Origin: Serinicoccus sediminis
GTDB taxonomy: Bacteria; Actinomycetota; Actinomycetes; Actinomycetales; Dermatophilaceae
Reading direction: 5' to 3'
DNA length: 64,000 nt
Assembly: GCF_004153545.1 (NCBI RefSeq)
Contig: NZ_SDVA01000002.1
Span: 62,001 to 126,000 of the forward strand
In this document: positions 4,197 to 60,527 of the stretch, piece after piece
How positions within the stretch are numbered: the stretch's first letter is position 1
How the letters are laid out: each line of letters starts with the position of its first letter
Made by a program: the position numbers and the translations under genes
Notes under the pieces: model-generated
The model's database searches: none
What the model saw: only the letters and a program-made list of their open reading frames with translations
Told to the model about the DNA's origin: nothing

Positions 4197-5348
4197 ATGG
4201 CCTCTCCCTTCGACCTCTCGCTCGAGCAGATGCGGACCCACCGCAGCGCCAAGTGGAGCCGCGTCCCCGACGACGTGCTGCCGGCGTGGACCGCCGAGAT
4301 GGACGCCGTCACCGGCCCCGCGATCAGCTCGGCGCTGCACACCGCGATCGAGCGCAGCGACCTGGGGTATGCCGGTGAGCCCGGTCCGGTCGTCGACGCC
4401 TTCGCCGGCTTCGCGCGGGACGTGTGGGGCTGGGAGACCCAGGGCACGCCCGGCCGGGCGCGGCTCTTCGCCGACGTCGGCCAGGCCGCCAAGGAGACGT
4501 TGCGCGCGCTCACCTCGCCCGGCGACGCGGTCGTCCTCAACCCACCGGTCTACCTGTCCTTCTACCCCTGGCTGCGCGAGCTGGGCCTCGAGCCCCTCGA
4601 GGTGCCCATGCTCGACGTGGCCGGGGGCGGCCGGCTCGACCTGGGGGCGATGGGCCGCGCGGTCGCCGGCGGCGCCCGGGTGGTGCTGCTGTGCAGCCCG
4701 CACAACCCGCTGGGCTACGTCTACCCGCGCGAGGAGCTGGCCGCGCTCGCCGACCTGGCGGCCGAGCACGACGCCGTGGTCATCGCCGACGAGATCCACG
4801 CCCCGCTCGTCCACCCCGGCAGCCCGCGCCCGTTCGTGCCGTTCCTCACGGTGAGCGAGGCCGCGCGGCAGGTCGGCATCGCCCTGCACTCGCCGTCCAA
4901 GGCGTGGAACACCGCAGGGCTCAAGCTGGCGCTGGGCGTCACCGCGGTGGAGGGGAGGTGGCCGCAGCGCCAGCCGGAGACCGACTGGGCGCCGAGCATC
5001 CTGGGGCAGTACGCCGCGATCGCCGCCTACACCGAGGGCCGGGAGTGGCTGGCGACCACCGTGGCCGAGATCGAGGCGCGCACCCAGGCCCTGCCCGCCC
5101 TGCTCGCCGAGCACCTGCCGGGGGTCCGGTTCACCCCTGGCACCGCCTCCTACCTCGCCTGGCTCGACTGCCGCGCCCTCGACCTCGGTGACGATCCCGC
5201 GCAGACCTTCCTCGAGCGCGGGCGGGTGCTGCTCTCCCCGGGCCCGGCCTTCGGCGCCGGCGGCGCCGGCTTCGCCCGGCTCAACATCGGCACCAGCGAG
5301 GACCTCGTGCGCGAGGCCGTCCGCCGCATGGCCGCTGCCCTCCCCTGA
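4197..5348 (+). CDS. MalY/PatB-family PLP-dependent C-S lyase/aminotransferase
   Basis: A 383-residue fold-type I PLP enzyme. The N-terminus has the MalY/PatB hallmark (KWSRVPDDVLPAWTAEMD), the Asn-Pro PLP contact is in LCSPHNPLGYV, the Asp-Glu pair in VIADEIHAPL and the Schiff-base lysine in SPSKAWNTAG (about residue 235). The family catalyses beta-elimination of cystathionine or cysteine conjugates, releasing pyruvate and ammonia. Divergent from the GH32 gene; the gene is followed by the 22-bp tandem array. No regulator is adjacent. Family call is firm, exact substrate is not. Confidence 0.88.
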   Translation: MASPFDLSLEQMRTHRSAKWSRVPDDVLPAWTAEMDAVTGPAISSALHTAIERSDLGYAGEPGPVVDAFAGFARDVWGWETQGTPGRARLFADVGQAAKETLRALTSPGDAVVLNPPVYLSFYPWLRELGLEPLEVPMLDVAGGGRLDLGAMGRAVAGGARVVLLCSPHNPLGYVYPREELAALADLAAEHDAVVIADEIHAPLVHPGSPRPFVPFLTVSEAARQVGIALHSPSKAWNTAGLKLALGVTAVEGRWPQRQPETDWAPSILGQYAAIAAYTEGREWLATTVAEIEARTQALPALLAEHLPGVRFTPGTASYLAWLDCRALDLGDDPAQTFLERGRVLLSPGPAFGAGGAGFARLNIGTSEDLVREAVRRMAAALP

Positions 5349-5400
5349 CGGAGCACCCGCCCGACCCGGCCCGACCCGACCCGGCCTCCCCCCTTCCTGC

Positions 5401-5488
5401 ACCGGACGCGTGCTCCGGCCACACCGGACGCGCCCTCAGACCACACCGGACGCGTGCTCCGGCCGCACCGGACGCGTGCTCGACGGCC
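5401..5488 (+). repeat. 22-bp tandem repeat array, 4 units (locus A1)
   Basis: Four direct repeats with the invariant core ACCGGACGCG starting at 5401, 5423, 5445 and 5467, an exact 22-bp period. The typical full unit reads ACCGGACGCGTGCTCCGGCC plus two bases; the second unit diverges in its 3' half. Several units contain CCGGA-N7-TCCGG dyads. It lies between two convergent genes. The same array occurs at 27802-27889 (opposite orientation) and 62887-62974. Confidence 0.92.
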
Positions 5489-5498
5489 GCAGGCCCGA

Positions 5499-6419
5499 TC
5501 AGCCGCAGTCGATCGCCCCGAGCCGCGCCAGCCCCTCCAGGTCACCGGGGCCGAAGCCGGGCTGGCCGGTGTTGACCGCCGCCATGAGCTCGCCCGGGTC
5601 GTCCACGTGGTCCAGGCCCAGGACGTGGCCGAGCTCGTGGTCGAGCACCAGCGCGGTCTCCCTGGTGCCGACGAGGTCCTGGCGGTCCAGGACGACCGAG
5701 CCGCTGACCAGCGTCCTGCGCCCCGACACCGCGTCGGTCATGACGAGCGGGCCACCGAGCCCCGCCGTCCGCCCGGTGAGCGCCGGCACCTGCGCCGCGG
5801 TGGACCAGGCGACGAGCACCGGGTCCCGGGCCGTCCTCGGCTGGTCGAAGGTGTCCTCGCTCTCGCCCACGAGCTCGAGCAACAGCCCGGAGGCCGCGGA
5901 GACGCGCGCCAGCGACCCCTCCACGACGTCCTCGTAGCCCGCAGGTGCGCCGTCCGGGTTCACGACCACCTCGACCGACCGGCACGGTGAGAAGCCGACG
6001 GGCTCCTCCGACGCGGGCTGCGTGTAGAGGAAGGCGTGCTCGCCGGTCCGGGCGACAGCCACCTCTGGCAGCAGCCGGGAGGACTCCCCGGCGAGGCCAC
6101 CCAGCGGGTCGTCCAGCGGGGTGGACTCCTGCACCACGGCAGCGACCTCGTCCGCCCACGCCACCCGCTGGTCGTCATCACGGCCGGTGACCAGGTCGAC
6201 CGCCCGGCCGAGCAGCTCCGACGACTGCGTCGGGAAGAGGGCGACGGCGGCGACCCCCGCGATCACGACCACCCAGCCCGTGCCGGAGCGACGACGTCGC
6301 CGGCGGGGCGGGGAGGACGGGATGCCGCCCAGGCCGTAGAGCTCGTCCCAGCGGTCGAGCTCGGCGAGGCGGCGTTCCATCTCGCGCGCCCGGCGGCGTC
6401 GCGCCATCGGCTCGAACAT
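5499..6419 (-). CDS. Membrane-anchored matrixin-like zinc metalloprotease
   Basis: A 306-residue protein with a basic N-terminus (about 45 residues, RRRRRRSG), one transmembrane segment near residues 47-65 (GWVVVIAGVAAVALFP) and an extracytoplasmic catalytic domain. The C-terminal domain carries the metzincin-type zinc motif HELGHVLGLDH (HExxHxxGxxH), followed by DDPGELM, which resembles the Met-turn. Start ATG 6419 is preferred because an AGGA site precedes it. Substrate unknown. A clear paralogue, with the same VNPDGAP segment and zinc motif, lies at 17345-18055. Convergent with the MalY-type gene across the 22-bp array. Confidence 0.82.
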   Translation of the reverse strand: MFEPMARRRRAREMERRLAELDRWDELYGLGGIPSSPPRRRRRRSGTGWVVVIAGVAAVALFPTQSSELLGRAVDLVTGRDDDQRVAWADEVAAVVQESTPLDDPLGGLAGESSRLLPEVAVARTGEHAFLYTQPASEEPVGFSPCRSVEVVVNPDGAPAGYEDVVEGSLARVSAASGLLLELVGESEDTFDQPRTARDPVLVAWSTAAQVPALTGRTAGLGGPLVMTDAVSGRRTLVSGSVVLDRQDLVGTRETALVLDHELGHVLGLDHVDDPGELMAAVNTGQPGFGPGDLEGLARLGAIDCG

Positions 6420-6491
6420 GGGCTCATCCTGCCGCACGCCGCGGCATACCGCTGCCCGCTGCGCACCGCTCCCGACCGGGTATGCCGTCCC

Positions 6492-7760
6492 TCAGGCCTC
6501 GCGCGGTGGCGTCACCTTGGTGCGGGCGTAGCGGAAGGGCTCGCGCGGGGGCCGGGTCAGCAGGTCGGCGGTGAAGCGCCGACGGGCCAGCAGCACGAGC
6601 AGGCCCGCGGTGGCGAAGCAGGCCGCGGCCACCGCCCAGGTCACCGGGAAGCCGACGGCCTGCGAGAGCCCGCCCAGGAGCGCCGGGCCCAGGGCACCTC
6701 CGGCGAACGCCCCCGCCTGGACCGCGCCCGAGGCCTGGGCCGGGTTGTCGCGCCCGAGGCGGGCGACGGCATACAGCAGCAGGCCGGGCCACGACCAGCC
6801 GATGCTGAAGGCCAGCAGCCCGAAGGCCCACACCGCCCACGGCTCGGCCATGGCCAGGCCCGCGCAGGCCAGTGCCCCGACCCCCATCTGCGCGGCGACG
6901 ACGGGCAGGTTGGCCCCGTGCCGGTGGTCGGCCCGCCAGCCGGAGAAGATCCGGACCGCGATGGAGCCGCCCGAGCCCAGCGCCATGAGGATCCCGGTCT
7001 GCGACGGGGTGAGCCCGACCTCGAACCCCCAGGAGGCGGCGAAGGCACCGACGAAGTTGGCGGCCGCGCTCGCGAAGGTGATGGCCAGCGCCGCGAGCAC
7101 CAGCGGCAGGGTCGGCGGCGACTCCAGCAGCTCGGGCAGGGAGACGGCCCCGGCCGACCCCCGCCGGGCGCGGTGCCTCCGCTCCCGGACCAGCAGCACC
7201 AGCGCCCCGCCGACGACCACCAGCCCCAGGGCCGCGGTGATGAGGAACGTGGACCGCCACCCCCACACCGCCCCCGTGGTCGGGACCGCGAGCCCCCCGA
7301 GCATGATCGCGAGCGGCACCGCCGACTGCTTGACCCCGAAGCCGAGGCCGCGGCGCCCCGGCGGCAGGGTGCGGGCCATGAGCAGGTTCGCGGTGGCCTG
7401 GGACGCGGCGTTGCCGAGCCCGAGGGCGACCATGACGAGCAGCAGCGACCACCAGCCGCTGACCAGCACCGTCATCGCCACCCCACCCCCGGCGACGAGG
7501 GTGCCCGCCGCGAGCAGCAGCCGGCCGCGGCCCCACCGGTCCACGACGCCGGAGGTCGACAGGGTCGCGACCGCGGCGGTCGCGAAGAAGACGCTGACGC
7601 CTACCCCGAACGCGCCGAGCCCCAGCCCGAGGTCCTCCCGGATGCGCACCGCCTGGGCACCCAGGAGGAAGGGCGGGATGGCGCCGAGCGTGGTGACCGC
7701 CGAGGCGAGCACCATGACGAGCGCGGAGCGACCACGGCGCGGGGCTGCTGGCCTGACCAC
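6492..7760 (-). CDS. MFS transporter
   Basis: A 422-residue major facilitator superfamily protein with about twelve hydrophobic segments, from VMVLASAVTTLGAIPPFLLG near the N-terminus to FATAGLLVLLARRR near the C-terminus. The cytoplasmic loop between helices 2 and 3 reads VVDRWGRGRLLLAAG, the MFS GxxxDRxGRR-type signature. A basic central loop (RERRHRARRGSAG) separates the two halves. Start GTG 7760 is the longest option; an internal ATG about 15 codons in is possible. Substrate not predictable. It follows the DASS gene on the same strand with a 52-base gap, so co-transcription is possible. Confidence 0.85.
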   Translation of the reverse strand: MVRPAAPRRGRSALVMVLASAVTTLGAIPPFLLGAQAVRIREDLGLGLGAFGVGVSVFFATAAVATLSTSGVVDRWGRGRLLLAAGTLVAGGGVAMTVLVSGWWSLLLVMVALGLGNAASQATANLLMARTLPPGRRGLGFGVKQSAVPLAIMLGGLAVPTTGAVWGWRSTFLITAALGLVVVGGALVLLVRERRHRARRGSAGAVSLPELLESPPTLPLVLAALAITFASAAANFVGAFAASWGFEVGLTPSQTGILMALGSGGSIAVRIFSGWRADHRHGANLPVVAAQMGVGALACAGLAMAEPWAVWAFGLLAFSIGWSWPGLLLYAVARLGRDNPAQASGAVQAGAFAGGALGPALLGGLSQAVGFPVTWAVAAACFATAGLLVLLARRRFTADLLTRPPREPFRYARTKVTPPREA

Positions 7761-7812
7761 GCGGGCGCCTCGCCCCCTCCCTGCCGTCGAGCGGTATGCC
7801 GTCCGCCGGCCC

Positions 7813-9423
7813 CTAGAGCACCATGCCCAGGGCGAACGGCCCGATCAGCACCGTGAAGAGGGTGATGAGGAGCACGCCGACGACGTTGAGGACGATTCCA
7901 CCACGCGCCATCTCCTGGATTTTCACCGCCCCGGTGCCGAAGACGATGGCGTTGGGCGGGGTGCCCACCGGCAGCATGAACGCGCAGGTCGCGGCGAGCG
8001 CGGCCGGGATGAGCAGGGTGATCGGGTCGACCCCGATGCCGACCGCGACCCCGCCGAGGACGGGGATGAAGGTGGCGGCGGTCGCGGTGTTGCTCGTCAC
8101 CTCGGTGAGGAAGAGCACGATGGTGACGACGGCGGCGAGCAGCAGCACGATGGGCAGGGCGCCGAGCCCGGTCACCTGGGTGCCGAACCACTCGTCCAGC
8201 CCGGTGCCGGCCACCGCGGCCGCCAGGCTCAGGCCACCACCGAAGAGCAGCAGCACGCCCCAGGGCAGGCCCTCCTCCGCGTCGTCCCACTCCAGCGCCA
8301 TCCGGCCCTCCCGGTCCCCGGGGATGAGGAAGAGCGCCAGGCCTGCGCCGATGGCGATGGCGGTGTCGTCGAGCTCGCCGAGCCACGGGGCGGCCTCGGC
8401 GAGCGCCGGGATGTTGAACAGCAGCCCGGGCACGATCCACAGGAAGGCCGCGCCGCAGAAGACCGTGAGCACGACCTTCTCGCCCTGGCTCATCGGGCCC
8501 AGCTCGTCGATCTCGGAGTTGATGAGCTCACGGCCGCCGGGGATCTCCTGCAGCTGGAAGCGGAACATGAGCCGGGTGATGAGCAGCCACGCGAGGCCGA
8601 TGAAGACCACCACGATGGGGACACCGAGGAGCATCCAGGCGAGGAAGCCCACGTCGGTCCCCACCTCGTCGGCGAGGTAACCGGCGACGATGGCGTTGGG
8701 TGGGCTCCCGAGCAGGGTGCCCAGGCCGCCGATCGAGGCGGCCCACGCGATGGACAGGACGAGCGCGACGCCGAAGAGCCGCACGTCCGGGTCGTTGACG
8801 ACGTCGCTCACCGCGCGCCCCTGACCGACCTCCTCGGCCACGTCGCCGTCGGCCACGCTCGAGGCGGCCTGCCGGCTGTTCTCGACCACGAGGGCGAGCA
8901 CCGAGATGCCGATGGGCAGCATCATCAGGGTGGTCGCGGTGTTGGAGACCCACATCGACAGGAACGCCGTGGAGATCATCATGCCGAGGATGATCCGGCG
9001 GGGGTGGGTGCCGACCCGCCGCAGCGTGAGCAGGGCGATGCGGCGGTGGAGGTTCCACTTCTGCATGGCGATGGCGATGAGGAAGCCACCGAGGAAGAGG
9101 AAGACGATCGAGTTGGCGTAGGGCGCCGTCGCGTCCGCGACCCCGAGCCCGGTCAGCGGCGGGATGAGGACGATCGGCAGCAGCGAGGTCGCCGCCAGCG
9201 GGATGGCCTCGGTCATCCACCAGGTCGCCATGAGCACGGCGACCGCCGCGACGAAGCGGGCGTCGCCGGACATGTCCGCACCGCCCAGCAGGAGGTAGAC
9301 CAGCGCCGCCAGGCCGAGCCCGCCCAGCCGGAACGTCCAGGTGCGACCGGCCGGCCGGGGTGGCTCCCGGTCGCTCGCCTCGTAGTCGTACTCGCCCTGT
9401 TCCCGAACGACCTGTCCGCTCAT
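7813..9423 (-). CDS. DASS-family (SLC13-like) anion symporter
   Basis: A 536-residue membrane protein of the divalent anion:sodium symporter family, importing dicarboxylates or sulfate-like anions with sodium. Two SNT motifs that bind anion and sodium are present: SNTATTLMMLP in the first half and SNTATAATFIP in the second. Two related hairpin segments read LLGSPPNAIV and PVGTPPNAIVFGTG. The N-terminal ~30 residues (MSGQVVREQGEYDYEASD) are acidic and cytoplasmic. A long loop between the halves (VVENSRQAASSVADG) is insertion-like. Start ATG 9423 chosen because the family N-terminus is short. Divergent from the saccharopine dehydrogenase-like gene. Confidence 0.88.
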   Translation of the reverse strand: MSGQVVREQGEYDYEASDREPPRPAGRTWTFRLGGLGLAALVYLLLGGADMSGDARFVAAVAVLMATWWMTEAIPLAATSLLPIVLIPPLTGLGVADATAPYANSIVFLFLGGFLIAIAMQKWNLHRRIALLTLRRVGTHPRRIILGMMISTAFLSMWVSNTATTLMMLPIGISVLALVVENSRQAASSVADGDVAEEVGQGRAVSDVVNDPDVRLFGVALVLSIAWAASIGGLGTLLGSPPNAIVAGYLADEVGTDVGFLAWMLLGVPIVVVFIGLAWLLITRLMFRFQLQEIPGGRELINSEIDELGPMSQGEKVVLTVFCGAAFLWIVPGLLFNIPALAEAAPWLGELDDTAIAIGAGLALFLIPGDREGRMALEWDDAEEGLPWGVLLLFGGGLSLAAAVAGTGLDEWFGTQVTGLGALPIVLLLAAVVTIVLFLTEVTSNTATAATFIPVLGGVAVGIGVDPITLLIPAALAATCAFMLPVGTPPNAIVFGTGAVKIQEMARGGIVLNVVGVLLITLFTVLIGPFALGMVL

Positions 9424-53117: not shown

Positions 53118-53211
53118 ACCGGGGCCAACACCGCGGCGGCCGGTGCTGTTCCGTTCGGTGCTGCCCCTTCTGCAGCGACCCCATCGCAGCTGTCCGTCCG
53201 GTGCCGTTGCC

Positions 53212-53682
53212 TCAGCCGGCGGGGCGGGCGAGTCCGGCCCGCGCCGAGCGCATCATCAGCGCGTGGTTGGCGCGCAGCGCCCAGCGGGCCGGCGGCAGGG
53301 CGGCGAGGTGGCGCACCCCGGGCTTGGCCAGCAGCACCCGCTGCTCCCAGACCATCCGGCACCCGCCGGGGGCGGGCGCGACGTGCACCTCGACATACCC
53401 CTGCAGGTCACCCTCGATGCCCACCCGCAACCGCCCCGCCTGCCGGTCCTCGTGCTCGCGGACGAGGACGAGGTCCAGCGGGACGGGCAGGAGGCTGCGG
53501 GCCCGGACCCGAGCCCGGTCCGAGCTGAGCTGCTCGACCGAGCGCACCTGCCGCCACCACGTCGGGTAGGCCGCGAGGTCGACGAGCCGGTCGAGCACCG
53601 CCTCGGGAGCGACGGGCAGCGTCCAGTCCTCGCGGAAGGTGAACCAGCGGCCCCGGTCGGGGGTCTGGGGTGGTGTCGGCAC
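53212..53682 (-). CDS. SRPBCC (polyketide cyclase-like) protein
   Basis: A 156-residue START/SRPBCC-fold protein from GTG 53682, beginning VPTPPQTPDRGRWFTF. Its helix-grip core reads LPVAPEAVLDRLVDLAAYPT, WWRQVRSVEQLSSDRARV and CRMVWEQRVLLAKPGVRH. An in-frame ATG at 53742 lies inside the regulatory 19-bp element and is less likely. Family members bind hydrophobic ligands; no catalytic residues can be assigned. Divergent from the peptide-transport operon. Confidence 0.75.
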   Translation of the reverse strand: MPTPPQTPDRGRWFTFREDWTLPVAPEAVLDRLVDLAAYPTWWRQVRSVEQLSSDRARVRARSLLPVPLDLVLVREHEDRQAGRLRVGIEGDLQGYVEVHVAPAPGGCRMVWEQRVLLAKPGVRHLAALPPARWALRANHALMMRSARAGLARPAG

Positions 53683-53725
53683 ACCTCCATCCTCGCGCAA
53701 CCGGCCGGGGCCCCCGGGGGTCAGA

Positions 53726-53744
53726 CGTGGCCGAAAGTTCATGG
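53726..53744 (+). promoter_or_regulatory. 19-bp regulatory box, copy 1 (upstream of the peptide/ABC operon)
   Basis: CGTGGCCGAAAGTTCATGG is identical at 58227-58245. It ends 20 bases before TAGCGT (53765-53770), the -10 of the operon, a typical activator position near -40. The small dyad GAA-AG-TTC lies in its centre. The likely binder is the NarL-type response regulator of the same cluster. Confidence 0.78.
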
Positions 53745-53764
53745 TCGCCGCCCCGTGACCTGCC

Positions 53765-53770
53765 TAGCGT
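53765..53770 (+). promoter_or_regulatory. -10 element of the peptide/ABC operon
   Basis: TAGCGT preceded by the 19-bp box and followed by a 5' leader of about 45 bases with the GAGGAGAA ribosome site of the first gene. Confidence 0.5.
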
Positions 53771-53822
53771 CGTGGGTGTTCGACCGGCGGACCGTCCGCC
53801 GCAACGACCAGAGGAGAACGTC

Positions 53823-54176
53823 ATGACCGCCGTCACCGCCGAGTCCATGCGGACTCACCACCCCGCACCGCTGGCCAGCCAGATCCGCTCGGAGACGCCA
53901 CCCGGCCGCCGGCCGCTCACCCTCGCGGAGCGCACGCTGGCCATGATGCTGCTCATCAGCACCAGCCCCGCGTCCGCCATGGAGTCCCTCCAGGAGCGTC
54001 GCCGCAACAGTGCCGGCCCGATCGTGGTCATCTTCGTCGTCGCCATCGCCGTGCTCCTGGTCCTGGCCGCGGCGATGTCCGTCGCCGTGGTCATCTACTG
54101 CGCCAACAAGGCCATGGACTTCGAGTGGTTCGTCAAGACGAGCTGGTTCGAGGTCAAGATCGCCTGCAGCACCTGA
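53823..54176 (+). CDS. Small single-pass membrane protein, candidate peptide precursor
   Basis: A 117-residue protein with no recognised family. Residues 1-62 are hydrophilic and basic (TPPGRRPLTLAERT; LQERRRNSAG) and should stay in the cytoplasm; residues 66-92 are a strong membrane helix; residues 93-117 form a 25-residue external tail with aromatic residues (DFEWFVKTSWFEV) and cysteines at 93 and 115 that could close a loop. This is the topology of a precursor cut by an intramembrane protease, and such a protease (54546-55163) is encoded two genes downstream in the same operon. Ribosome site GAGGAGAA, then ATG. The role as peptide precursor is inference. Confidence 0.7.
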   Translation: MTAVTAESMRTHHPAPLASQIRSETPPGRRPLTLAERTLAMMLLISTSPASAMESLQERRRNSAGPIVVIFVVAIAVLLVLAAAMSVAVVIYCANKAMDFEWFVKTSWFEVKIACST

Positions 54177-54234
54177 GCACGCCGCTGCCGCCCAGCCCTC
54201 GTCCGACCCTCGTTCCGCCAGCAAGGAGGAGACA

Positions 54235-54549
54235 ATGACCACCATGGTGGGATCACCCTCAGACAGCAACGGCGCCCTGATGCGGCGCACCGTCGGCTTC
54301 AGCGCCCTCGGGGCCCTGGCCGGCTTGCTCCTGGGCGTCGTGGTCACCCTCGGCATCGCCCTGTGGGGTATGTCGCAGGTGTCCAGCCAGGGCGGGTCCG
54401 TGGACCTGCTGCCGATCATCGAGCTGCAGCGCAGCGCCGCCGGGGACGTGACGGCACAGTCGGGCAACGGCATCGTCGTGCTCCCGCTGGCCGGCATCCT
54501 GCTCGGCACCGCGAGCGGGCTGCTGCTGGGGTTGCGTCGTCCCCGATGA
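54235..54549 (+). CDS. Small two-helix membrane protein
   Basis: A 104-residue protein with two membrane helices (TVGFSALGALAGLLLGVVVT and VVLPLAGILLGTASGLLLGL) and an external loop of about 35 residues between them (SQVSSQGGSVDLLPIIEL). It has a very good ribosome site (AAGGAGGAG) and its stop overlaps the protease gene by four bases. No family recognised. In peptide-toxin operons a protein of this size and shape often gives immunity or assists export; that is a suggestion from context only. Confidence 0.65.
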   Translation: MTTMVGSPSDSNGALMRRTVGFSALGALAGLLLGVVVTLGIALWGMSQVSSQGGSVDLLPIIELQRSAAGDVTAQSGNGIVVLPLAGILLGTASGLLLGLRRPR

Positions 54550-55163
54550 ACCCCCGCGGACCGGCGGGCCACCCGGGCGGCACCACGCACCGCCCGGGTG
54601 GCCTGCTGCGCCGGTGTGCGGGGCCGCCGCTCCGGGTGGCGGCGCTGCTCGCACCGCTGCACCTGCTCGCCGGCTGGGTGCTGCACCCCTTCCTCGGCGC
54701 CGGCCCGGCCCTGCTCTGCGCGGCTGCGGCGCTGACCTATCCCACGTCCTACCTGGCCCACGAGATGGGTCACGTGCTCGCCTACCGTCGCCTCGCCCCG
54801 CCCGGTGCCGCGGCGGCGCTCGCCGCCCCGCAGCGGTGGACCGTCGTCATCGAGAGAGACCGGTTGCCCCGGCGCGAGGACGTGCTGGTCACCCTCGCCG
54901 GCCCCCTGGCAGGCGGCCTCACGTGCCTGGCCCCGCACGCCGTGGCCGCGCTGCTGGGTGCCGGCGTCGAGGTGCACCTGGCCCTGCTGCCGGGGACAGC
55001 CAGCCTGGTCCAGCACGTGGGCTCGCTCTCGGGGGGCGCGGCCGACCGCCAGGCCCTCGTCGCGGCGCTGCGCGAGCCCGAGCACCCCGTCGCCGTGCCG
55101 CGGCAGCCCGGGCACCCCGTGGCGCCACACCTCCCGACCCAGATGCGAGGAGAACCGTCATGA
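54546..55163 (+). CDS. M50-like intramembrane zinc metalloprotease
   Basis: A 205-residue membrane protein with the site-2-protease-like pattern: HEMGH at residues 72-76 inside a hydrophobic segment (SYLAHEMGHVLAYRRLAPPG) and LAGPLAGG at 117-124, the conserved second region of M50/M50-like peptidases. A third metal ligand (usually Asp in NxxPxxPLDG) is not clear. About four helices are predicted; the C-terminus is Pro/His-rich and cytoplasmic. Tightly coupled by four-base overlaps to the small membrane protein before it and the ABC ATPase after it, which suggests that it matures the peptide precursor at 53823. Confidence 0.75.
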   Translation: MNPRGPAGHPGGTTHRPGGLLRRCAGPPLRVAALLAPLHLLAGWVLHPFLGAGPALLCAAAALTYPTSYLAHEMGHVLAYRRLAPPGAAAALAAPQRWTVVIERDRLPRREDVLVTLAGPLAGGLTCLAPHAVAALLGAGVEVHLALLPGTASLVQHVGSLSGGAADRQALVAALREPEHPVAVPRQPGHPVAPHLPTQMRGEPS

Positions 55164-55972
55164 CCCCCGACCAGCCCCTCCACCCGTCCGGCGCCCGCAC
55201 CGGCCTCACCGTCGAGGCGGTGACCAGCGGGTACCGCTCCGGGCCGGACGTCGTCCACGAGGCGTCGTTCCGGGCCCCCGCCGGCCAGATCACCGCCCTG
55301 GTCGGCCCGAACGGCTCCGGCAAGTCGACGCTGCTGCACACGGTGCTCGGCCTCGTCCCGGCCCGGTCCGGGCGCACCCTGCTGGACGGGAGCGACCTGC
55401 GACCGCAGGTCTCGGAGGCGGTGGGCTTCTGCGCCGACGACCTGCCGCTGCCGGAGCTGCTGACGGGCGTGGAGTACGTGCAGACCATGGCCCAGCTGCG
55501 GGGCCGTCACGTCTCCCAGGTCGAGATCGGCGAACACTTCGAGGCGTTGCGGATGGGCTCGGCCACCGACCGGCTGCTGGGGACCTACAGCCACGGGATG
55601 AAGCGCAAGGCGCAGCTCGTCGCGAACCTGCTGCACATGCCCTCGCTGCTCATCCTGGACGAGCCCTTCCGCGGCCTCGACCCGGAGACCACGGCGCTCC
55701 TGCGGCGGGTGCTCACCGACACCGCGGCGGATGGCCGAACGATCCTGGTCTCCACCCACGACCTCGGCGCGGTGGCCTCCTTCTGCGACCGGGTCACGGT
55801 GCTCAGCGACGGCGTGGTGGTCCTGGACGAGGAGGTCGGCGCGCTGCGAGAGGCCGCAGGTCGCGACGAGCGCTTCCTGGAGGACGCCTTCCTCGAGGCG
55901 ACCGGCTTGCGGAGCGCCGTCGAGGAGTCCGCGCAGCGCGCGGCCACCCTGCTGCGAGGCGGCACCCGATGA
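55160..55972 (+). CDS. ABC transporter ATPase of the peptide operon
   Basis: A 270-residue ABC ATPase. Walker A LVGPNGSGKSTLLHTVLGL (~residue 46), signature LGTYSHGMKRKAQLVANLL (an SHGMKRK form common in bacteriocin-exporter and antibiotic-efflux ATPases), Walker B SLLILDEPFRGLDPE and switch His in VSTHDLGAVASFCD. The C-terminal ~50 residues form a helical extension. It would energise the permease encoded immediately downstream (four-base overlap), exporting or giving immunity to the peptide. Confidence 0.88.
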   Translation: MTPDQPLHPSGARTGLTVEAVTSGYRSGPDVVHEASFRAPAGQITALVGPNGSGKSTLLHTVLGLVPARSGRTLLDGSDLRPQVSEAVGFCADDLPLPELLTGVEYVQTMAQLRGRHVSQVEIGEHFEALRMGSATDRLLGTYSHGMKRKAQLVANLLHMPSLLILDEPFRGLDPETTALLRRVLTDTAADGRTILVSTHDLGAVASFCDRVTVLSDGVVVLDEEVGALREAAGRDERFLEDAFLEATGLRSAVEESAQRAATLLRGGTR

Positions 55973-57429
55973 GTGCCACCCTGCTGCTGGTCCGCGCCGA
56001 GAACCGCCAGCTGCGCCACCACGTGCAGCGCCGGCTCCCGTCCCGGGCCGCCTTCCCCGCTCTGCTGGTGACCGTCGCGGCAGCGGCGACGTCGCTGAAC
56101 CTCATGGTGTACCTGATGCTGCGGGAGGCGCTCACCGGCGTCCAGTCGACCCTCGCGGGCAGCGACTCCTCGGCAGATCTGCTCCAGCGCGCCGTCTCGG
56201 TCCTTCCCTTCGCCCTGGCGCTGGGACCGGCGGCGGCCGTCCTGGTGCTCCACCTGGTCAGCCCGCACGGGTCACCGCTGCTCCTGCACGCTCGGATGGC
56301 CGGGGTCAGCCGGCGCGCCTGCGGGGCCGCCCGCTACCTGGGGCATCTCGCGTGGGGGCTCATCCTGGGTCTGGGGCTGCTCCTCGGCGGCGGATGGGCA
56401 CTGGCCTGGCATCTCTCACCCCGCCCGGCGATGGCCATGGTCGGGATGATCCTGCTCGGCGCCGTGGCGACCGCGGCGGCCACCACCGTCCTCACCCTGA
56501 CCCAGTCGACCCTGACCCCGGTGCTGCGCTCGGCCGAGGCCACCAGGTCCGTCGGTCTGCTCCTGGTCTGTCTGGCCGTCGGGCTGCTGCTGGCCGACGT
56601 CATGCACGCCGTCACCGGCTCCGGCTCCGGCTCGGTGGTGCTCGCCGTCTCCGGACTGTGGGGAGGGCCGCTGCCCGACCACCCGGGCGCGCACCTGGTC
56701 CTCGTCGCGACGACGGGTGCCCTGGTCGGGGTGGGACTGCTCGCGGCACGCAGTGACGCCGCCGGCGGGGGGCTCCCCGTCCTCGGCCGCGCGCACAGCG
56801 TGCCGCAGACGGGCTACCTGCCGCTCGACCTGACCGCTCGAGAGATCGCCCAGGTGCTCCGTGACCCGGTCACCCGCGTCGCCACCCTCACCACGATCTT
56901 CGTGGCCGGGCTGGCGGTCCTCGGGGTATTCGCCGTCGACCTGCACCCGGGCGTCGCGGTGCTCCTCGTCGTGCTCCTCACGGCGCTGGGTGCCGAGACG
57001 GTCCACGGACGGTCCCGCCAGACCGCCTGGAACCTGCTGCTGGCGGGGGTCTCGCCCGCCCGTGCGGCGCTCATCCGGACGCTGCCCTACCTGCTGCTGC
57101 AGGGGTCGCTCTTCCTCGTCCTCTTCGCCCCGGTGGCCGTGTCGTTCGGGGGTCCGCTGGCCTGGGCCGAGGCGGTCAGCCTCTTCGCGCTGACCTTCAG
57201 CGTGGCCCTGCTCTCCGGCACGGTGCTCCCCCTCGACCGGCACGTGCCCACCGGTGTGGCGATCACGTCGGTGCTGACGCTGTCCATCGAGGCCATCGTC
57301 ATCCTGGCCATCACCGTGCTCCTGCGGCTCGAGGGGCTGGCCCTGGTGCTGGTGGACCTCGGGCTGGCCGTGGGCGTGGCCGCCGTGGCGCTGCGGCTGA
57401 TGGCCCGCGCCCTGTCACGGATGGACTGA
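55969..57429 (+). CDS. ABC transporter permease of the peptide operon
   Basis: A 486-residue polytopic protein with about eleven to twelve hydrophobic segments, for example SVLPFALALGPAAAVLVLHL, GHLAWGLILGLGLLLGGGWA, LLLVCLAVGLLLADVMHAV and AIVILAITVLLRLEGLALVL. No signature of a known permease family is recognised; the size suggests a two-module ABC-2-like permease. It overlaps the ATPase gene by four bases and is the last gene of the operon. Convergent with the response regulator, 30 bases between stops. Confidence 0.8.
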   Translation: MSATLLLVRAENRQLRHHVQRRLPSRAAFPALLVTVAAAATSLNLMVYLMLREALTGVQSTLAGSDSSADLLQRAVSVLPFALALGPAAAVLVLHLVSPHGSPLLLHARMAGVSRRACGAARYLGHLAWGLILGLGLLLGGGWALAWHLSPRPAMAMVGMILLGAVATAAATTVLTLTQSTLTPVLRSAEATRSVGLLLVCLAVGLLLADVMHAVTGSGSGSVVLAVSGLWGGPLPDHPGAHLVLVATTGALVGVGLLAARSDAAGGGLPVLGRAHSVPQTGYLPLDLTAREIAQVLRDPVTRVATLTTIFVAGLAVLGVFAVDLHPGVAVLLVVLLTALGAETVHGRSRQTAWNLLLAGVSPARAALIRTLPYLLLQGSLFLVLFAPVAVSFGGPLAWAEAVSLFALTFSVALLSGTVLPLDRHVPTGVAITSVLTLSIEAIVILAITVLLRLEGLALVLVDLGLAVGVAAVALRLMARALSRMD

Positions 57430-57459
57430 CCGGGCCACCCCCGCGGCTCACGACAGGGG

Positions 57460-58173
57460 TCAGCCCAGGTGGTCGCGGGGCAGCTGGGGCTGGACCAGAC
57501 CGAGCTCGGTGGACCGGATCAGCAGCTGCACCCGGTCCCGGACCCCCAGCTTGCGGCAGCACGAGGCGAGGTAGCTCTTGATCGCCCCCAGCGAGACGAA
57601 CATGGCGTCGGCGATCTCCTGGTTGGACATCCCGCGGGCCAGGTGGTCCACGCACTCGCTCTCGCGCTCGCTCAGGCTCTCCCACATGGGGTCCATCGGG
57701 GCGGGCGAGGCGACCCGCCTGCCCGCCTCCTCGTCCCGCAGCCGCTGCGCCACCCAGGTGGTGAGGGCGCGCGCCGCCTCTGGGGACAACGGCATACCGT
57801 CCTCCAGCACCGCGCGCACCGCCGGGCCGAGCTCCTGGGCGGCCCGGTCCTTGACCAGGTACCCGCTCGCGCCCGCCGCCATCGCCGCGAGCACGGTCTC
57901 CTCGGCGCTGAAGGTGGTGAGCGCGAGGACGGGGAGCTCGGGGTCGCTGCGATGCAGCTCGCGGATGGCCTCCACACCATCCAGCCGAGGCATGCCCAGA
58001 TCCATGAGCACCAGGTCGGGGCGCGTCGCCGCAGCCCGCAGCAGGGCCTCCTCGCCGTCCCCCGCGACGTCGATCCGCGTCACCTCGGGCTGGGCGAGTG
58101 TTTCCAGCAGCCGGCAGATGCCGTCGCGGACGGTGGCGTCGTCGTCCACCACCAGCACGCTGATCCCACCCAC
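57460..58173 (-). CDS. NarL/LuxR-type response regulator
   Basis: A 237-residue two-component response regulator. The receiver has the acidic pocket VLVVDDDATVRDG, the phosphoacceptor Asp59 in LVLMDLGMPRLDG, the Thr in LALTTFSAEET and the Lys in YLVKDRAAQE. The C-terminal LuxR-type helix-turn-helix reads SERESECVDHLARGMSNQEI, followed by FVSLGAIKSYLASCCRKLGV. Start GTG 58173 is chosen because TACCAT lies seven bases upstream (leaderless); ATG 58182 would sit within that -10. Divergent from the secreted peptide and the histidine kinase. Probably binds the shared 19-bp box. Confidence 0.9.
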   Translation of the reverse strand: MGGISVLVVDDDATVRDGICRLLETLAQPEVTRIDVAGDGEEALLRAAATRPDLVLMDLGMPRLDGVEAIRELHRSDPELPVLALTTFSAEETVLAAMAAGASGYLVKDRAAQELGPAVRAVLEDGMPLSPEAARALTTWVAQRLRDEEAGRRVASPAPMDPMWESLSERESECVDHLARGMSNQEIADAMFVSLGAIKSYLASCCRKLGVRDRVQLLIRSTELGLVQPQLPRDHLG

Positions 58174-58226
58174 GACCAGCATGGTATGCCGCCGAGCCCG
58201 GGCGTGCGCCGTCGGACACGGGGCAT

Positions 58227-58245
58227 CGTGGCCGAAAGTTCATGG
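58227..58245 (+). promoter_or_regulatory. 19-bp regulatory box, copy 2 (upstream of the secreted peptide gene)
   Basis: CGTGGCCGAAAGTTCATGG, identical to 53726-53744. It ends 21 bases before CACGGT (58267-58272), which sits six bases before ATG 58279, so the peptide mRNA is probably leaderless. Placement relative to the -10 differs by only one base between copies. Confidence 0.78.
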
Positions 58246-58278
58246 CGCGCCGCGTGCCGGTGCCAGCACGGTGGGTCC

Positions 58279-58455
58279 ATGCGCTCCTCATCCACACCCC
58301 GCACCTGGATCCACCGCTTCGCCCACGCCGGGGCCGCCGGCTCGCTGGTCGCGTCGGCGATCGCCGGCCCGGCGCAGACCACGGTCCTCGGCCCGGGGGT
58401 GGGTGGGCCCGGTCAGCTGTTCTGCGAGATCTTCGACTTCCTAGACTGTGACTGA
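58279..58455 (+). CDS. Small secreted peptide precursor with two cysteines
   Basis: A 58-residue precursor. Residues 1-32 look like a Sec signal: basic start (MRSSSTPRTWIHRFAH), hydrophobic AGSLVASAIAG and a probable cut after GPAQ or nearby. The mature part of about 25 residues is Gly/Pro-rich (VLGPGVGGPGQ), then LFCEIFDFLDCD with cysteines at 49 and 57, enough for a small disulfide ring. It lies between divergent response regulator and histidine kinase genes and shares the regulatory box of the ABC operon. It could be the signal sensed by the kinase or a second effector peptide. I recognise no family. Confidence 0.72.
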   Translation: MRSSSTPRTWIHRFAHAGAAGSLVASAIAGPAQTTVLGPGVGGPGQLFCEIFDFLDCD

Positions 58456-58509
58456 CGTGACCTCCCCGACTCCGGGAGGCTGACTCCGCACTCCCGGGAA
58501 GGAGAGGGC

Positions 58510-59748
58510 GTGGGCACGCCTGACGCGACCCACCGTCCGCCGCAGGTCGCCGTACGGCTTCCTGCCGTGGCGACCGCCGCGCTGGCCGCTGTCGCCGCCG
58601 TCTCGACCGTGGACGACCTGCGGTTCGCCTCCGGCGACCCCGCGAGGGTGCTGGTGCTGGTGCTGGCCGGGCTGTCCCTCGCCTTCGTCGGGCTGACCCC
58701 CTGGGCCGGCGTCCCGCTGCTCTGGCTGGCTCTGGTCCTGTCCGCCGTCACCGGGGCAGTCGCACCGGTGCTGCTCCCGGTGGCGCTGGTCACCTGTGTG
58801 ACCCAGGCGACGGCGCCGCGCTGGCTGTCGCTGATGCACCTCGGTGCCGCGACCGTCGGGGTGCTCGTGACGCTGGCCCGGCACACGGAGCTCAGCACGT
58901 CGTCGGCCCTGTGGGGCGCGGCGTTGCTCGTGCTGGTGGCCGCTGCCGTCGGGGAGCTGCTGCGCTGGGTGCTGGTCGCGCGCCGTCAGCAGGCCGTGAT
59001 GCGCGAGGAGGCGCGGCGCCGGGAGGAGGCGCACCGGGTCGCCGTCGAGCAGGTGCGGCAGCAGGAACGGGCCGCGCTGGCGCGAGCGCTGCACGACGTC
59101 GTCGCCAGCGAGCTCACGGTCATCGCCACCAGCATCGGTGCGGCCAGGACCGAGGTCGACCGCGACCGGTGGGAGGAGACGCTGCAGGTGGTGGACGAGG
59201 CCTCCTCGGCAGCCCTCCTGGAGCTGCGCGAGCTGCTCGAGGTGGCCACCGACCGTCCGGGCGGTGTGGTGGGCGGCACACCGGGCCACCGCGGTGAGGA
59301 CGAGGCCCGCGAGCTGCCGTCGGACCGGGTGGCACGCCTGGCGGGGACGGCGCGCAAGCTGGGGCGGGAGGTCGAGCTGCAGCTGGACCCCTCCTCCCGT
59401 CTCGACCAGACCCCCGGACCGGGGCCCGAGACGGTGGTGAGAGTGGTGCGCGAGGCGATCACGAACGCCATCCGGCACGCCGGCCCAGGCCCCATCCGGG
59501 TCGTCGTGACCGGCTCGGGGGACGGCCCGTCGGGCGAGCTGCGCGTCGAGGTCAGCAGCCCGCTCGCGGAGCCGGGCACGGGGACGCCCTTCGACGACGG
59601 CGCCCGTCGTGGCCTGGCCGGGCTGCGCACCAGCGTCGAGGACGCCGGAGGGGAGCTCGGGGCGGGTGCCACCGAGGATGGGAAGTGGCAGGTGCGCGCC
59701 CGCGTACCGCGAGACCCCGCCGCAGCGCCGCACGGCCGGCCAGGCTGA
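58510..59748 (+). CDS. Sensor histidine kinase with polytopic input domain
   Basis: A 412-residue kinase of the HisKA_3/NarX-DesK type. Residues ~15-155 hold four to six membrane helices with little external sequence, as in peptide-sensing kinases. The phosphoacceptor is His195 in LARALHDVVASELTV; the ATPase domain has the N box REAITNAIRHAGPGP and the G box GARRGLAGLRTSVEDAGG. Start GTG 58510 has AAGGAGAG upstream; a short CCTCCC/GGGAGG hairpin separates it from the peptide gene. It would signal to the response regulator at 57460-58173. Confidence 0.87.
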   Translation: MGTPDATHRPPQVAVRLPAVATAALAAVAAVSTVDDLRFASGDPARVLVLVLAGLSLAFVGLTPWAGVPLLWLALVLSAVTGAVAPVLLPVALVTCVTQATAPRWLSLMHLGAATVGVLVTLARHTELSTSSALWGAALLVLVAAAVGELLRWVLVARRQQAVMREEARRREEAHRVAVEQVRQQERAALARALHDVVASELTVIATSIGAARTEVDRDRWEETLQVVDEASSAALLELRELLEVATDRPGGVVGGTPGHRGEDEARELPSDRVARLAGTARKLGREVELQLDPSSRLDQTPGPGPETVVRVVREAITNAIRHAGPGPIRVVVTGSGDGPSGELRVEVSSPLAEPGTGTPFDDGARRGLAGLRTSVEDAGGELGAGATEDGKWQVRARVPRDPAAAPHGRPG

Positions 59749-59789
59749 GCGAGCGCCACCTTCCGGCTGCACCTGCAGGCCCGTCCGCC

Positions 59790-60527
59790 TCAGGGGGACA
59801 CGGCCTCCCGGTAGCGCCGGACCACGAGGTCGCGGAGCAGGTCGTGGGTGCCGAGCGGCCCGGTGGCGAGCGCGCCTCCGGCCTCGGCGACCCGCCGCGC
59901 CTTGGTCGCGAACCAGCCCGGCGAGAGCAGGTGGGTCGCCAGCACGATGCGGGTGTGCCCGGCGATCCGCAGCGCGGTGAGCGCGCAGGCCGCGCGCGGT
60001 CCGGGGCCGCTCAGGAACGCCGTTGCGGTGGCCGCGCCCAGCCGGGAGCCGACCAGCTCGGCGACCCGGGCGACCTCCGCGCGGGCGGCGTCGACGCTGG
60101 AGCCGGCCCCGACCACGAGGACGGCGTCGGCGTCCGGGTCGACCTCGCGGACCCGGTCGGCCAGGGCGTCGACGACCTCGTCGGCGGCCCCGAGGGCCGG
60201 GGTGAGGGTCGACCCCGGCAGCGCCTCGAGCGCCGAGGGCACGTCGTGCTTCACGTGGTATCCGGAGGCGAGGAAGAACGGCACGACCACCGGGTCGGTC
60301 ACGTCGGCCAGCACCTCGTCCAGGGTGGGGCCGCAGACGTCGACGTAGCCGACGCGGGCGGGGACGGGCATACCCAGCGCCGCGGCAGCACCGTCGGCGC
60401 ACCGTCGCACCACCGCCTGCCCCTCGGCGCTGGCGGTGCCGTGCGCAGCGACGACCAAGGGCCTGCTCGTGCGGTCGCGCGGATCGGTGGTCGAGGCAGC
60501 CGGGGTGGCAGCTGGTGCCCGGCTCAT
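59790..60527 (-). CDS. Sirohydrochlorin chelatase/CbiX-like protein
   Basis: A 245-residue protein of the CbiX/SirB family. The first half has LVVAAHGTASAEGQAVV with the chelatase His and VPFFLASGYHVKHDVP with the second His pair; the second half repeats the fold (VVGAGSSVDAARAEVARVAE, then TRIVLATHLLSPGWF). It would insert iron into sirohydrochlorin to make siroheme (or cobalt). Start ATG 60527 overlaps the cysG-like stop (ATGA). Third and last gene of the cysH operon; siroheme is the cofactor of sulfite and nitrite reductases. Confidence 0.85.
   Translation of the reverse strand: MSRAPAATPAASTTDPRDRTSRPLVVAAHGTASAEGQAVVRRCADGAAAALGMPVPARVGYVDVCGPTLDEVLADVTDPVVVPFFLASGYHVKHDVPSALEALPGSTLTPALGAADEVVDALADRVREVDPDADAVLVVGAGSSVDAARAEVARVAELVGSRLGAATATAFLSGPGPRAACALTALRIAGHTRIVLATHLLSPGWFATKARRVAEAGGALATGPLGTHDLLRDLVVRRYREAVSP

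Follow-up and report, generated by a model that had tools for sequence, protein, structure and literature searches.

We propose that an eight-gene accessory block of Serinicoccus sediminis would produce a bacteriocin-like peptide that is released from the membrane, looped by a disulfide and controlled by autoinduction, resembling the epipeptide operon of Bacillus subtilis but lacking an epimerase; we judge this explanation to have about an even chance of being right. The block lies within the window, that is, the whole 64,000-nucleotide stretch of contig NZ_SDVA01000002.1 analysed here, and an earlier note on this DNA had read it as a candidate system for peptide maturation, export and sensing, an interpretation that is partly supported by our results. 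The five co-directional genes and the adjoining regulator, 58-residue peptide and kinase that it described were all found as eight reading frames. The features, with their positions in the window, are the following:

53711..59795, no strand assigned: accessory block of eight genes, about 6.08 kb, absent in three same-genus genomes
53726..53744, forward: 19-bp box 1, upstream of the 117-residue gene, identical to box 2
53823..54176, forward: 117-residue one-helix putative peptide precursor with C93 and C115 (reading frame, alignment)
54235..54549, forward: 104-residue two-helix membrane protein (counterpart in relatives by architecture and place)
54546..55163, forward: M50/site-2-protease-like protein, 205 residues, with H72, E73, H76, P120 and D167 conserved (alignment, model)
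55160..55972, forward: ABC ATPase, 270 residues (PF00005, ABC_tran, E 2.3e-23; aligned with 14 relatives)
55969..57429, forward: ABC permease, 486 residues (no family match)
57460..58182, reverse: NarL-type response regulator, 240 residues, receiver plus GerE (Pfam Response_reg and GerE)
58227..58245, forward: 19-bp box 2, between the regulator and the 58-residue gene, identical to box 1
58279..58455, forward: 58-residue putative secreted signal-peptide precursor ending in FCEIFDFLDCD (codon-position G+C, upstream box, place)
58510..59748, forward: sensor kinase, 412 residues, with a polytopic membrane N-terminal half (Pfam HisKA_3 and HATPase_c; membrane helices judged by eye)

The operon runs from the 117-residue peptide through the two-helix protein, the M50-like protease and the ABC ATPase to the permease, with 58 nt separating the end of the first gene from the second and a 4-nt overlap at each of the three joints among genes 2 to 5. 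When the window was compared by blastn with three sister genomes (L101-L103), the block was missing from them as one piece: similarity ends at 53695-53710 and restarts at 59796-59800, with 81-100 bp lying between in the sisters. The earlier note had named two observations that would speak against it. One of them, non-conservation of the small frames in close relatives, was literally encountered, since these genomes lack the entire block; the other, homologues of the small genes without the protease or transporter, was not seen for the 117-residue protein at the loci read. An origin of the block by chance or artefact was rejected, since homologous cassettes exist at other loci and the box has only two sites in the genome.

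Distant homologues of the 117-residue peptide were located at a further 26 loci of Actinobacteria, in hosts that include Streptomyces, Glycomyces, Georgenia, Tessaracoccus, Terrabacter and Kibdelosporangium, among others. These relatives keep the peptide, the protease, the ABC pair and the two-helix protein together as a conserved unit, in line with the grouping first suggested, and 23 of the 25 uncut locus records share the order peptide, ATPase, permease, two-helix protein, protease. At the loci read, the peptide family is found strictly together with the ABC pair, and a protease gene is present in each complete cassette. Of 20 tested gaps between the peptide gene and the ATPase gene after it, 16 hold a strong RNA hairpin (with simple shuffles, 20 of 22), which suggests more peptide than machinery transcript; the corresponding gap in the window holds no stable hairpin (z +1.05). 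In a phylum-wide search with a mixed model, 10 of 396 genomes gave matches at E <=0.01, namely the own genome and nine with matches in long frames, which were judged to be chance from frame length.

The 117-residue gene has a coding-like G+C content at codon positions 1, 2 and 3 (0.59/0.50/0.96). Its product carries the two-cysteine tail previously noted, C93 and C115 having 21 residues between them and the stretch from C93 to the end comprising 25 residues. Both cysteines are invariant in an alignment of 28 peptides (28/28), in which the N-terminal helix and the transmembrane helix are also conserved, as is an FTGxW tail in most members of the core family. Many relatives have cationic tails, so the membrane topology of the precursor is less certain. 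By sequence, the window holds a divergent form of the peptide family: its peptide has no direct match to the main-family model and is connected to it via genome G071, which carries two tandem peptide genes. In NCBIfam no model scored above the cut-off for it; a sequence search of solved structures gave three irrelevant matches (E 0.097 or worse), and a fold search with its predicted model gave nothing at E below 4.9.

An alternative is that the 117-residue protein serves the ABC transporter as a small subunit or as a sensor and is turned over by the M50 protein in an envelope-stress or peptide-resistance module whose kinase senses an outside threat. The strict tie to the ABC pair would fit such a subunit, as would N-terminal and transmembrane helices more conserved than a mere leader requires; NarL-type regulators, moreover, often serve stress responses. 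The hairpin, however, suggests an excess of the small protein over the transporter, and the tandem genes of G071, the protease gene in each complete cassette and the presence, at three loci, of a private mini-peptide gene next to the kinase also speak against a subunit, a role that we consider unlikely.

With regard to the protease, the HEMGH and LAGPLAGG motifs reported earlier are present in the 205-residue protein. Its score for Pfam M50 (PF02163; E 0.056, 13.2 bits) stays under the gathering score of 27.2 bits, and for this reason the protein is called M50-like. The conserved H, E, H, P and D columns are kept in 21 of 21 protease sequences, the columns of H72, E73, H76 and D167 being invariant in all 21 and corresponding to an HExxH in a membrane helix with a distal Asp zinc ligand. 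In the alignment and the predicted model, the window protease appears site-2-protease-like. The idea that it had lost the aspartate ligand, raised by an LLPG motif, was withdrawn because the 21-sequence alignment and the model place D167 in a conserved column; in the predicted structure this residue stands at a helix start. A protease search across 149 genomes of the family returned 11 matches, ten of which were short and partial (E 1.9e-4 or worse), while a sequence search of solved structures gave none.

The window two-helix protein showed no detectable homology to its main-family counterpart with the family profile, and the permease gave one irrelevant match among solved structures (E 2.8). 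In the libraries searched, none names the peptide, the two-helix protein or the permease, and PADLOC defence and PHROG phage families gave no meaningful match for nine proteins. No description of the cassette was found among open-licence PMC papers by title or abstract start. As far as these searches reach, no named family was found for the cassette, which agrees with the earlier note.

An identical 19-bp sequence precedes both small peptide genes, an observation absent from the earlier note. Its 18-bp core has just two sites in the whole 3.55-Mb genome when up to 3 mismatches are allowed. When 12 region pairs from other loci were compared for a common box in direct and inverted orientation (60 shuffles each), none emerged that we trust; the best candidates are, at L060, an imperfect inverted 15-mer (p below 0.02) and, at L069, an 11-mer (p 0.05).

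The 58-residue gene is likewise coding-like in its G+C at codon positions 1, 2 and 3 (0.66/0.60/0.90), and secretion of its product was judged by eye. Upstream its frame remains open, running antisense to the regulator, so that its start is a presumed one and the frame fails our mini-peptide scan; no convincing homologue was found in 148 genomes of the host's family. Nevertheless, at L073 and L078, next to the same cassette, a two-cysteine mini-gene stands between the regulator and the kinase; the last 13 residues of the two are identical, with 3 synonymous changes. The full regulator/kinase pair in the window arrangement is found at few loci (the window, L073 and L078), and it lies outside the conserved core of the cassette; a small peptide gene adjoining kinase and regulator, the hallmark sought for a peptide pheromone, occurs at these same three. 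Before inspection, the scan itself had yielded 10 candidates upstream, where the controls predicted 1.16. L061, L065 and L068 proved to be out-of-frame readings of a conserved LuxR gene, L066 and L067 the LuxR gene itself, and L046 and L062 look like chance, leaving only L060, L073 and L078. The enrichment thus collapsed to 3 against about 1, and conserved GCVTxxCPF-like mini-peptides in Streptomyces were rejected.

The scarcity of such full pairs and the lack of conservation of the 58-residue frame would be expected if cassette and two-component genes were separate neighbours, the frame being no gene and the kinase controlling something else. We regard this as very unlikely: the identical box stands in front of each of the two transcription units and has no further site in the genome, the block is lost or gained as one, and the arrangement of regulator, mini-gene and kinase recurs. 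A further possibility is that the looped peptide is itself a pheromone rather than an antimicrobial, matured and exported by the protease and the ABC pair in the manner of Eep and PptAB. Maturation and export of pheromones by M50 proteases and ABC transporters are known, and in 13 of the 32 locus records inspected, which cover 27 loci, a LuxR-type regulator is encoded upstream. A separate two-cysteine mini-gene is, however, available for the signal role in the window and two relatives, and the FTGxW tail is conserved in most members, whereas peptide pheromones usually diverge in sequence; we find this option rather improbable.

Among known systems, the B. subtilis epipeptide operon epeXEPAB (yydFGHIJ) is described as comprising a small precursor, a membrane-bound M50 protease thought to release it and an ABC pair postulated for immunity, with a link to a two-component envelope response (PMC7026026, PMC10885120). 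The window similarly places a small precursor beside an M50-like protease and an ABC ATPase and permease. Compared by description, it differs in having a two-helix protein, its own regulator, kinase and mini-peptide, and two invariant cysteines, and no radical SAM epimerase match was found among its eight genes. Daptides (Mpa/Dap clusters) combine actinobacterial precursors, an intramembrane peptidase and ABC transporters (PMC10036551), as the window does; in contrast, no oxidative decarboxylase, aminotransferase or methyltransferase was found among the eight genes, and a C-terminal Thr occurs in only 1 of 28 peptides, that of the window. Group 6 circular bacteriocin clusters hold an M50 metallopeptidase gene beside transport genes (PMC8659200). 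The window shares this adjacency, but the SpoIIM gene of those clusters was not recognised among its eight genes. Pheromone maturation and export in streptococci and enterococci rely on Eep and PptAB/EcsAB-type exporters, likewise a site-2 protease plus an ABC exporter acting on short peptides. Those protease and exporter genes are not known to share an operon with the peptide, nor are the peptides known to have two-cysteine tails, whereas in the window protease and ABC genes share an operon with a two-cysteine-tailed peptide. Finally, three-component bacteriocin regulation in lactic acid bacteria places an inducing-peptide gene by kinase and regulator, with promoter repeats common to the signal and product genes, a layout that the window parallels in its peptide gene and shared box; it differs in its NarL/HisKA_3-type pair, and no peptidase-domain transporter was recognised among the eight genes.

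Under the preferred explanation of a bacteriocin-like peptide under autoinduction, the precursor would be a membrane protein whose N-terminus lies inside the cell and whose two-cysteine tail is exposed outside, and the M50-like protease would cut it within or next to the membrane. The freed C-terminal peptide, of some 25-35 residues, would be closed by a C93-C115 disulfide, and the ABC transporter with the two-helix protein would export it or clear it from the producer's membrane. The product would most likely be a bacteriocin- or cannibalism-type antimicrobial, a role suggested by analogy only. Regulator, 58-residue peptide and kinase may constitute the autoinduction circuit, in which the secreted peptide would trigger the kinase and the regulator would bind the 19-bp box, so that signal gene and peptide operon rise together. 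In favour of this explanation we count the conserved unit, the invariant cysteines, the likeness of the protease, the hairpins, the tandem peptides of G071, the absence as one block in the sisters, the private box and the mini-genes of L073 and L078, together with the epipeptide precedent as an analogy. Against it we count the missing hairpin in the window, the 58-residue gene with its presumed start and no homologue, the want of boxes elsewhere, the departure of the window two-helix protein from the family profile and the cationic tails of relatives.

More tentatively, and as a possibility that we hold to be less than probable, the family may represent a class of secreted actinobacterial peptides not described before (a membrane helix and then a disulfide-closed beta-hairpin), made by a site-2 protease and an ABC transporter without a tailoring enzyme and placed, in some hosts, under a regulator-kinase circuit with a peptide pheromone encoded by its own gene. 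Quorum sensing in Actinobacteria has been called under-explored (PMC4748050). If our reading is true, the window would hold a dedicated peptide quorum-sensing circuit in Actinomycetota and a directly testable peptide-signal circuit in Actinobacteria, and intramembrane proteases would gain a further role in peptide maturation. The cassette would then define an unnamed ribosomal peptide family that has a fixed machinery of five genes and occurs in antibiotic-producing genera, and it could yield new peptides for antimicrobial action or communication.

The eight genes and the layout described in the earlier note were borne out on re-reading the window, and an exact repeat absent from that note was found to precede both the 117-residue peptide gene and the 58-residue gene (19 bp identical):

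53726-53744: box 1, before the 117-residue peptide gene
53823-57429, forward strand: five-gene cassette (117-residue peptide, 104-residue two-helix protein, M50-like protease, ABC ATPase, 486-residue permease)
57460-58182, reverse strand: NarL-type response regulator
58227-58245: box 2, identical to box 1, before the 58-residue gene
58279-58455: 58-residue gene
58510-59748: kinase

The three joints between cassette genes 2 to 5 are each a 4-nt overlap. Three of the eight proteins were recognised by Pfam (ATPase, response regulator, kinase); the best that the protease reached against Pfam M50 was E 0.056, and the 117-, 104- and 58-residue proteins and the permease gave nothing above cut-off against Pfam or NCBIfam models. 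A query of 18 bp from the 19-bp identical stretch matched twice in the window against 0.03 expected, and across the 3.55-Mb genome these two sites were its sole matches at up to three mismatches. The other loci tested showed no shared box.

The eight genes behave as one block of about 6.08 kb. In a search of eight same-genus genomes with the gene to its left, three matched strongly, one matched more weakly and four lacked the gene. In the three strong matches (sister loci L101-L103) the block-flanking genes are adjacent: similarity ends at 53695-53710 and restarts at 59796-59800 (window coordinates), with 81-100 bp between the flanks in place of the block. The earlier note had held that small ORFs unconserved in close relatives would speak against the system; they are indeed absent from L101-L103, but the entire eight-gene block is absent with them. 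The simpler explanation is that the window lineage gained the block, with loss in the sisters as the alternative; on both accounts the regulator, the kinase and the 58-residue gene travel with the cassette. Separately, the interval between the NAD(P)-binding and SRPBCC-like genes measures 71 bp in the window (53153-53223) and about 4 to 4.6 kb in L101 and L103, with a similar stretch in L102; by eye, the L101 frames at 4619-8620 resemble a formate-dehydrogenase-like oxidoreductase gene and one for an MFS antiporter.

Matches to the 117-residue protein occurred in 7 of 149 same-family genomes, its own counted. The one examined of the other six, G071 (locus L027), carries tandem peptides of 77 and 78 residues, an ATPase, a two-helix protein, a permease and a HELGH protein. 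Among 396 genomes of the order, 14, again with the window's own counted, matched a profile built from the window peptide and this tandem pair. Eight of the other 13 were examined (L029-L034, L036, L038), and at seven a short protein that combines a single hydrophobic helix with a two-cysteine tail adjoins an ABC ATPase, the remaining cassette genes being present in the wider regions; on reading the locus, no such protein lies beside an ABC ATPase in L036. Scanning genome contigs with a narrower alignment gave 59 pattern matches, leading to 21 loci: Streptomyces (nine), Glycomyces (two), Georgenia (two), Oceanitalea, Terrabacter, Kibdelosporangium, Tessaracoccus and four MAG records. Records L070, L071, L072 and L075 duplicate L042, L044, L045 and L043, respectively, and L074 and L078 were treated as a single MAG locus split between two contig ends. 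With a model of 18 peptides, a search across the class matched 3 of 394 genomes, of which two were new; the window's own genome was unmatched by this model, which marks its peptide as a divergent member. Besides the window there are 26 distinct loci, from searches covering its own phylum, other phyla being reached through the contig scan alone.

The gene content is well conserved. In a tblastn survey of 27 locus records, two of which (L064, L078) are truncated by contig ends, 23 of the 25 uncut records show the order peptide, ATPase, permease, two-helix protein, M50-like protein. For L027, tblastn shows the peptide and ATPase; the other three genes were found by reading, in a different order, and the window order is unlike both. 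In L070 (Georgenia satyanarayanai CGMCC 1.10826) there is no two-helix gene by tblastn and the permease and protease matches abut at 9168-9171, a sign of either a deletion or faulty assembly. When profiles of the window plus G071 were compared with those of the main family (the related cassettes elsewhere), the peptide (96.9% probability, E 1.4e-10), the M50-like protein (93.5%, E 2.3e-7) and the permease (75.8%, E 2.3e-5) matched, against 1.6% and 2.0% for two mismatched controls; for the two-helix protein similarity was undetected (0.6%). As to the earlier note's question of whether homologues keep the same company, the M50-like protein and ABC pair accompany the peptide in those 23 of 25 records; 13 of 32 records (27 loci) have a co-directional LuxR-type DNA-binding gene upstream. 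In the alignment, the family ATPases have SHGM(R/K) where the LSGGQ signature is usual, and the Walker B motif runs on as DET in main-family members but as DEP in the window and L027.

All 28 peptides, drawn from 27 loci with the window counted among them, keep both cysteines: the first lies where the hydrophobic helix ends, and the second at the C-terminus or within three residues of it. A modest AlphaFold2 model of the L058 member (pLDDT 68.2, pTM 0.40) has helices at 10-35 and 38-66 and strands at 70-77 and 80-87. The RRR cluster before the helix of the window protein suggests an N-inside, tail-outside precursor, a topology less sure in many relatives because their tails are cationic. The peptide-ATPase gap holds a long stable hairpin at most loci: with dinucleotide shuffles, which omitted gaps above 150 nt, z was -2.7 or lower in 16 of 20 gaps, the others being the window (+1.05; here the gap leads to the two-helix gene, not the ATPase gene), L043 (+1.29), L064 (-0.25) and L094 (-1.52). 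With simple shuffles, z was -2 or lower in 20 of 22 loci, L043 and L077 excepted. A hairpin 3' of a precursor gene is usual where the peptide transcript must exceed that of the machinery.

The 13 records with an upstream regulator are nine Streptomyces, two Glycomyces, L073 and L078; the window regulator is downstream of the cassette on the opposite strand. A separate scan placed a regulator-like match about 2 kb upstream in L064, and Terrabacter tumescens (L060) has a larger LuxR-like gene that scores 22.3 bits in Pfam, just under the cut-off of 23.5 bits. Between that gene and the L060 peptide gene, a 43-residue frame (6698-6829) with a signal-like start and a CIDCWR end may be another signal peptide. 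Genes of 53 and 52 residues sit between regulator and kinase in Tessaracoccus L073 and MAG L078, respectively; they have diverged except for their last 13 residues, WYCLLIPYLCPHR, where the three nucleotide changes are all synonymous. The window 58-residue gene occupies the same position and ends in FCEIFDFLDCD, its sequence being otherwise unrelated. It starts 33 nt past its box with no clear ribosome site, so its transcript may be leaderless. The earlier note had looked to homologues of this protein, and no convincing one emerged from 148 family genomes: 47 of the 148 were listed at E ≤ 0.1, and, its own genome aside, these matches had E 0.001 or worse, mostly within long or broken frames. 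Apparently conserved two-cysteine mini-peptides upstream of the peptide gene in L061, L065 and L068 were rejected, since they are the conserved LuxR gene read out of frame, a pitfall when small genes are sought in high-G+C genomes.

The view that no named system has this gene set was upheld: the peptide, two-helix and permease proteins submitted had no match above cut-off or convincing in Pfam, NCBIfam, PADLOC or PHROGs, a literature text search for the peptide signature motif returned nothing related, and topic searches gave no apparent description of the cassette. The nearest known logic is that of the B. subtilis epipeptide operon, where peptide release is ascribed to a membrane protease and immunity was postulated as the role of the ABC pair, although tests left that pair only a minor part (PMC7026026; PMC10885120). 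Since none of the eight window genes encodes a radical SAM protein, the cassette is not an epipeptide operon by that criterion. Nor is it a daptide cluster, because the tailoring enzymes described in PMC10036551 are absent here and the daptide C-terminal Thr occurs in 1 of 28 peptides. We rate the cassette as belonging with the known protease-plus-ABC peptide operons, with a peptide family that is unnamed. In the best reading, the M50-like protease would cut the peptide off its membrane anchor, a disulfide would close the released peptide, which may kill, signal or tune the transporter, the two-helix protein would handle it together with the ABC pair, and the system's own peptide signal would switch the cassette on.
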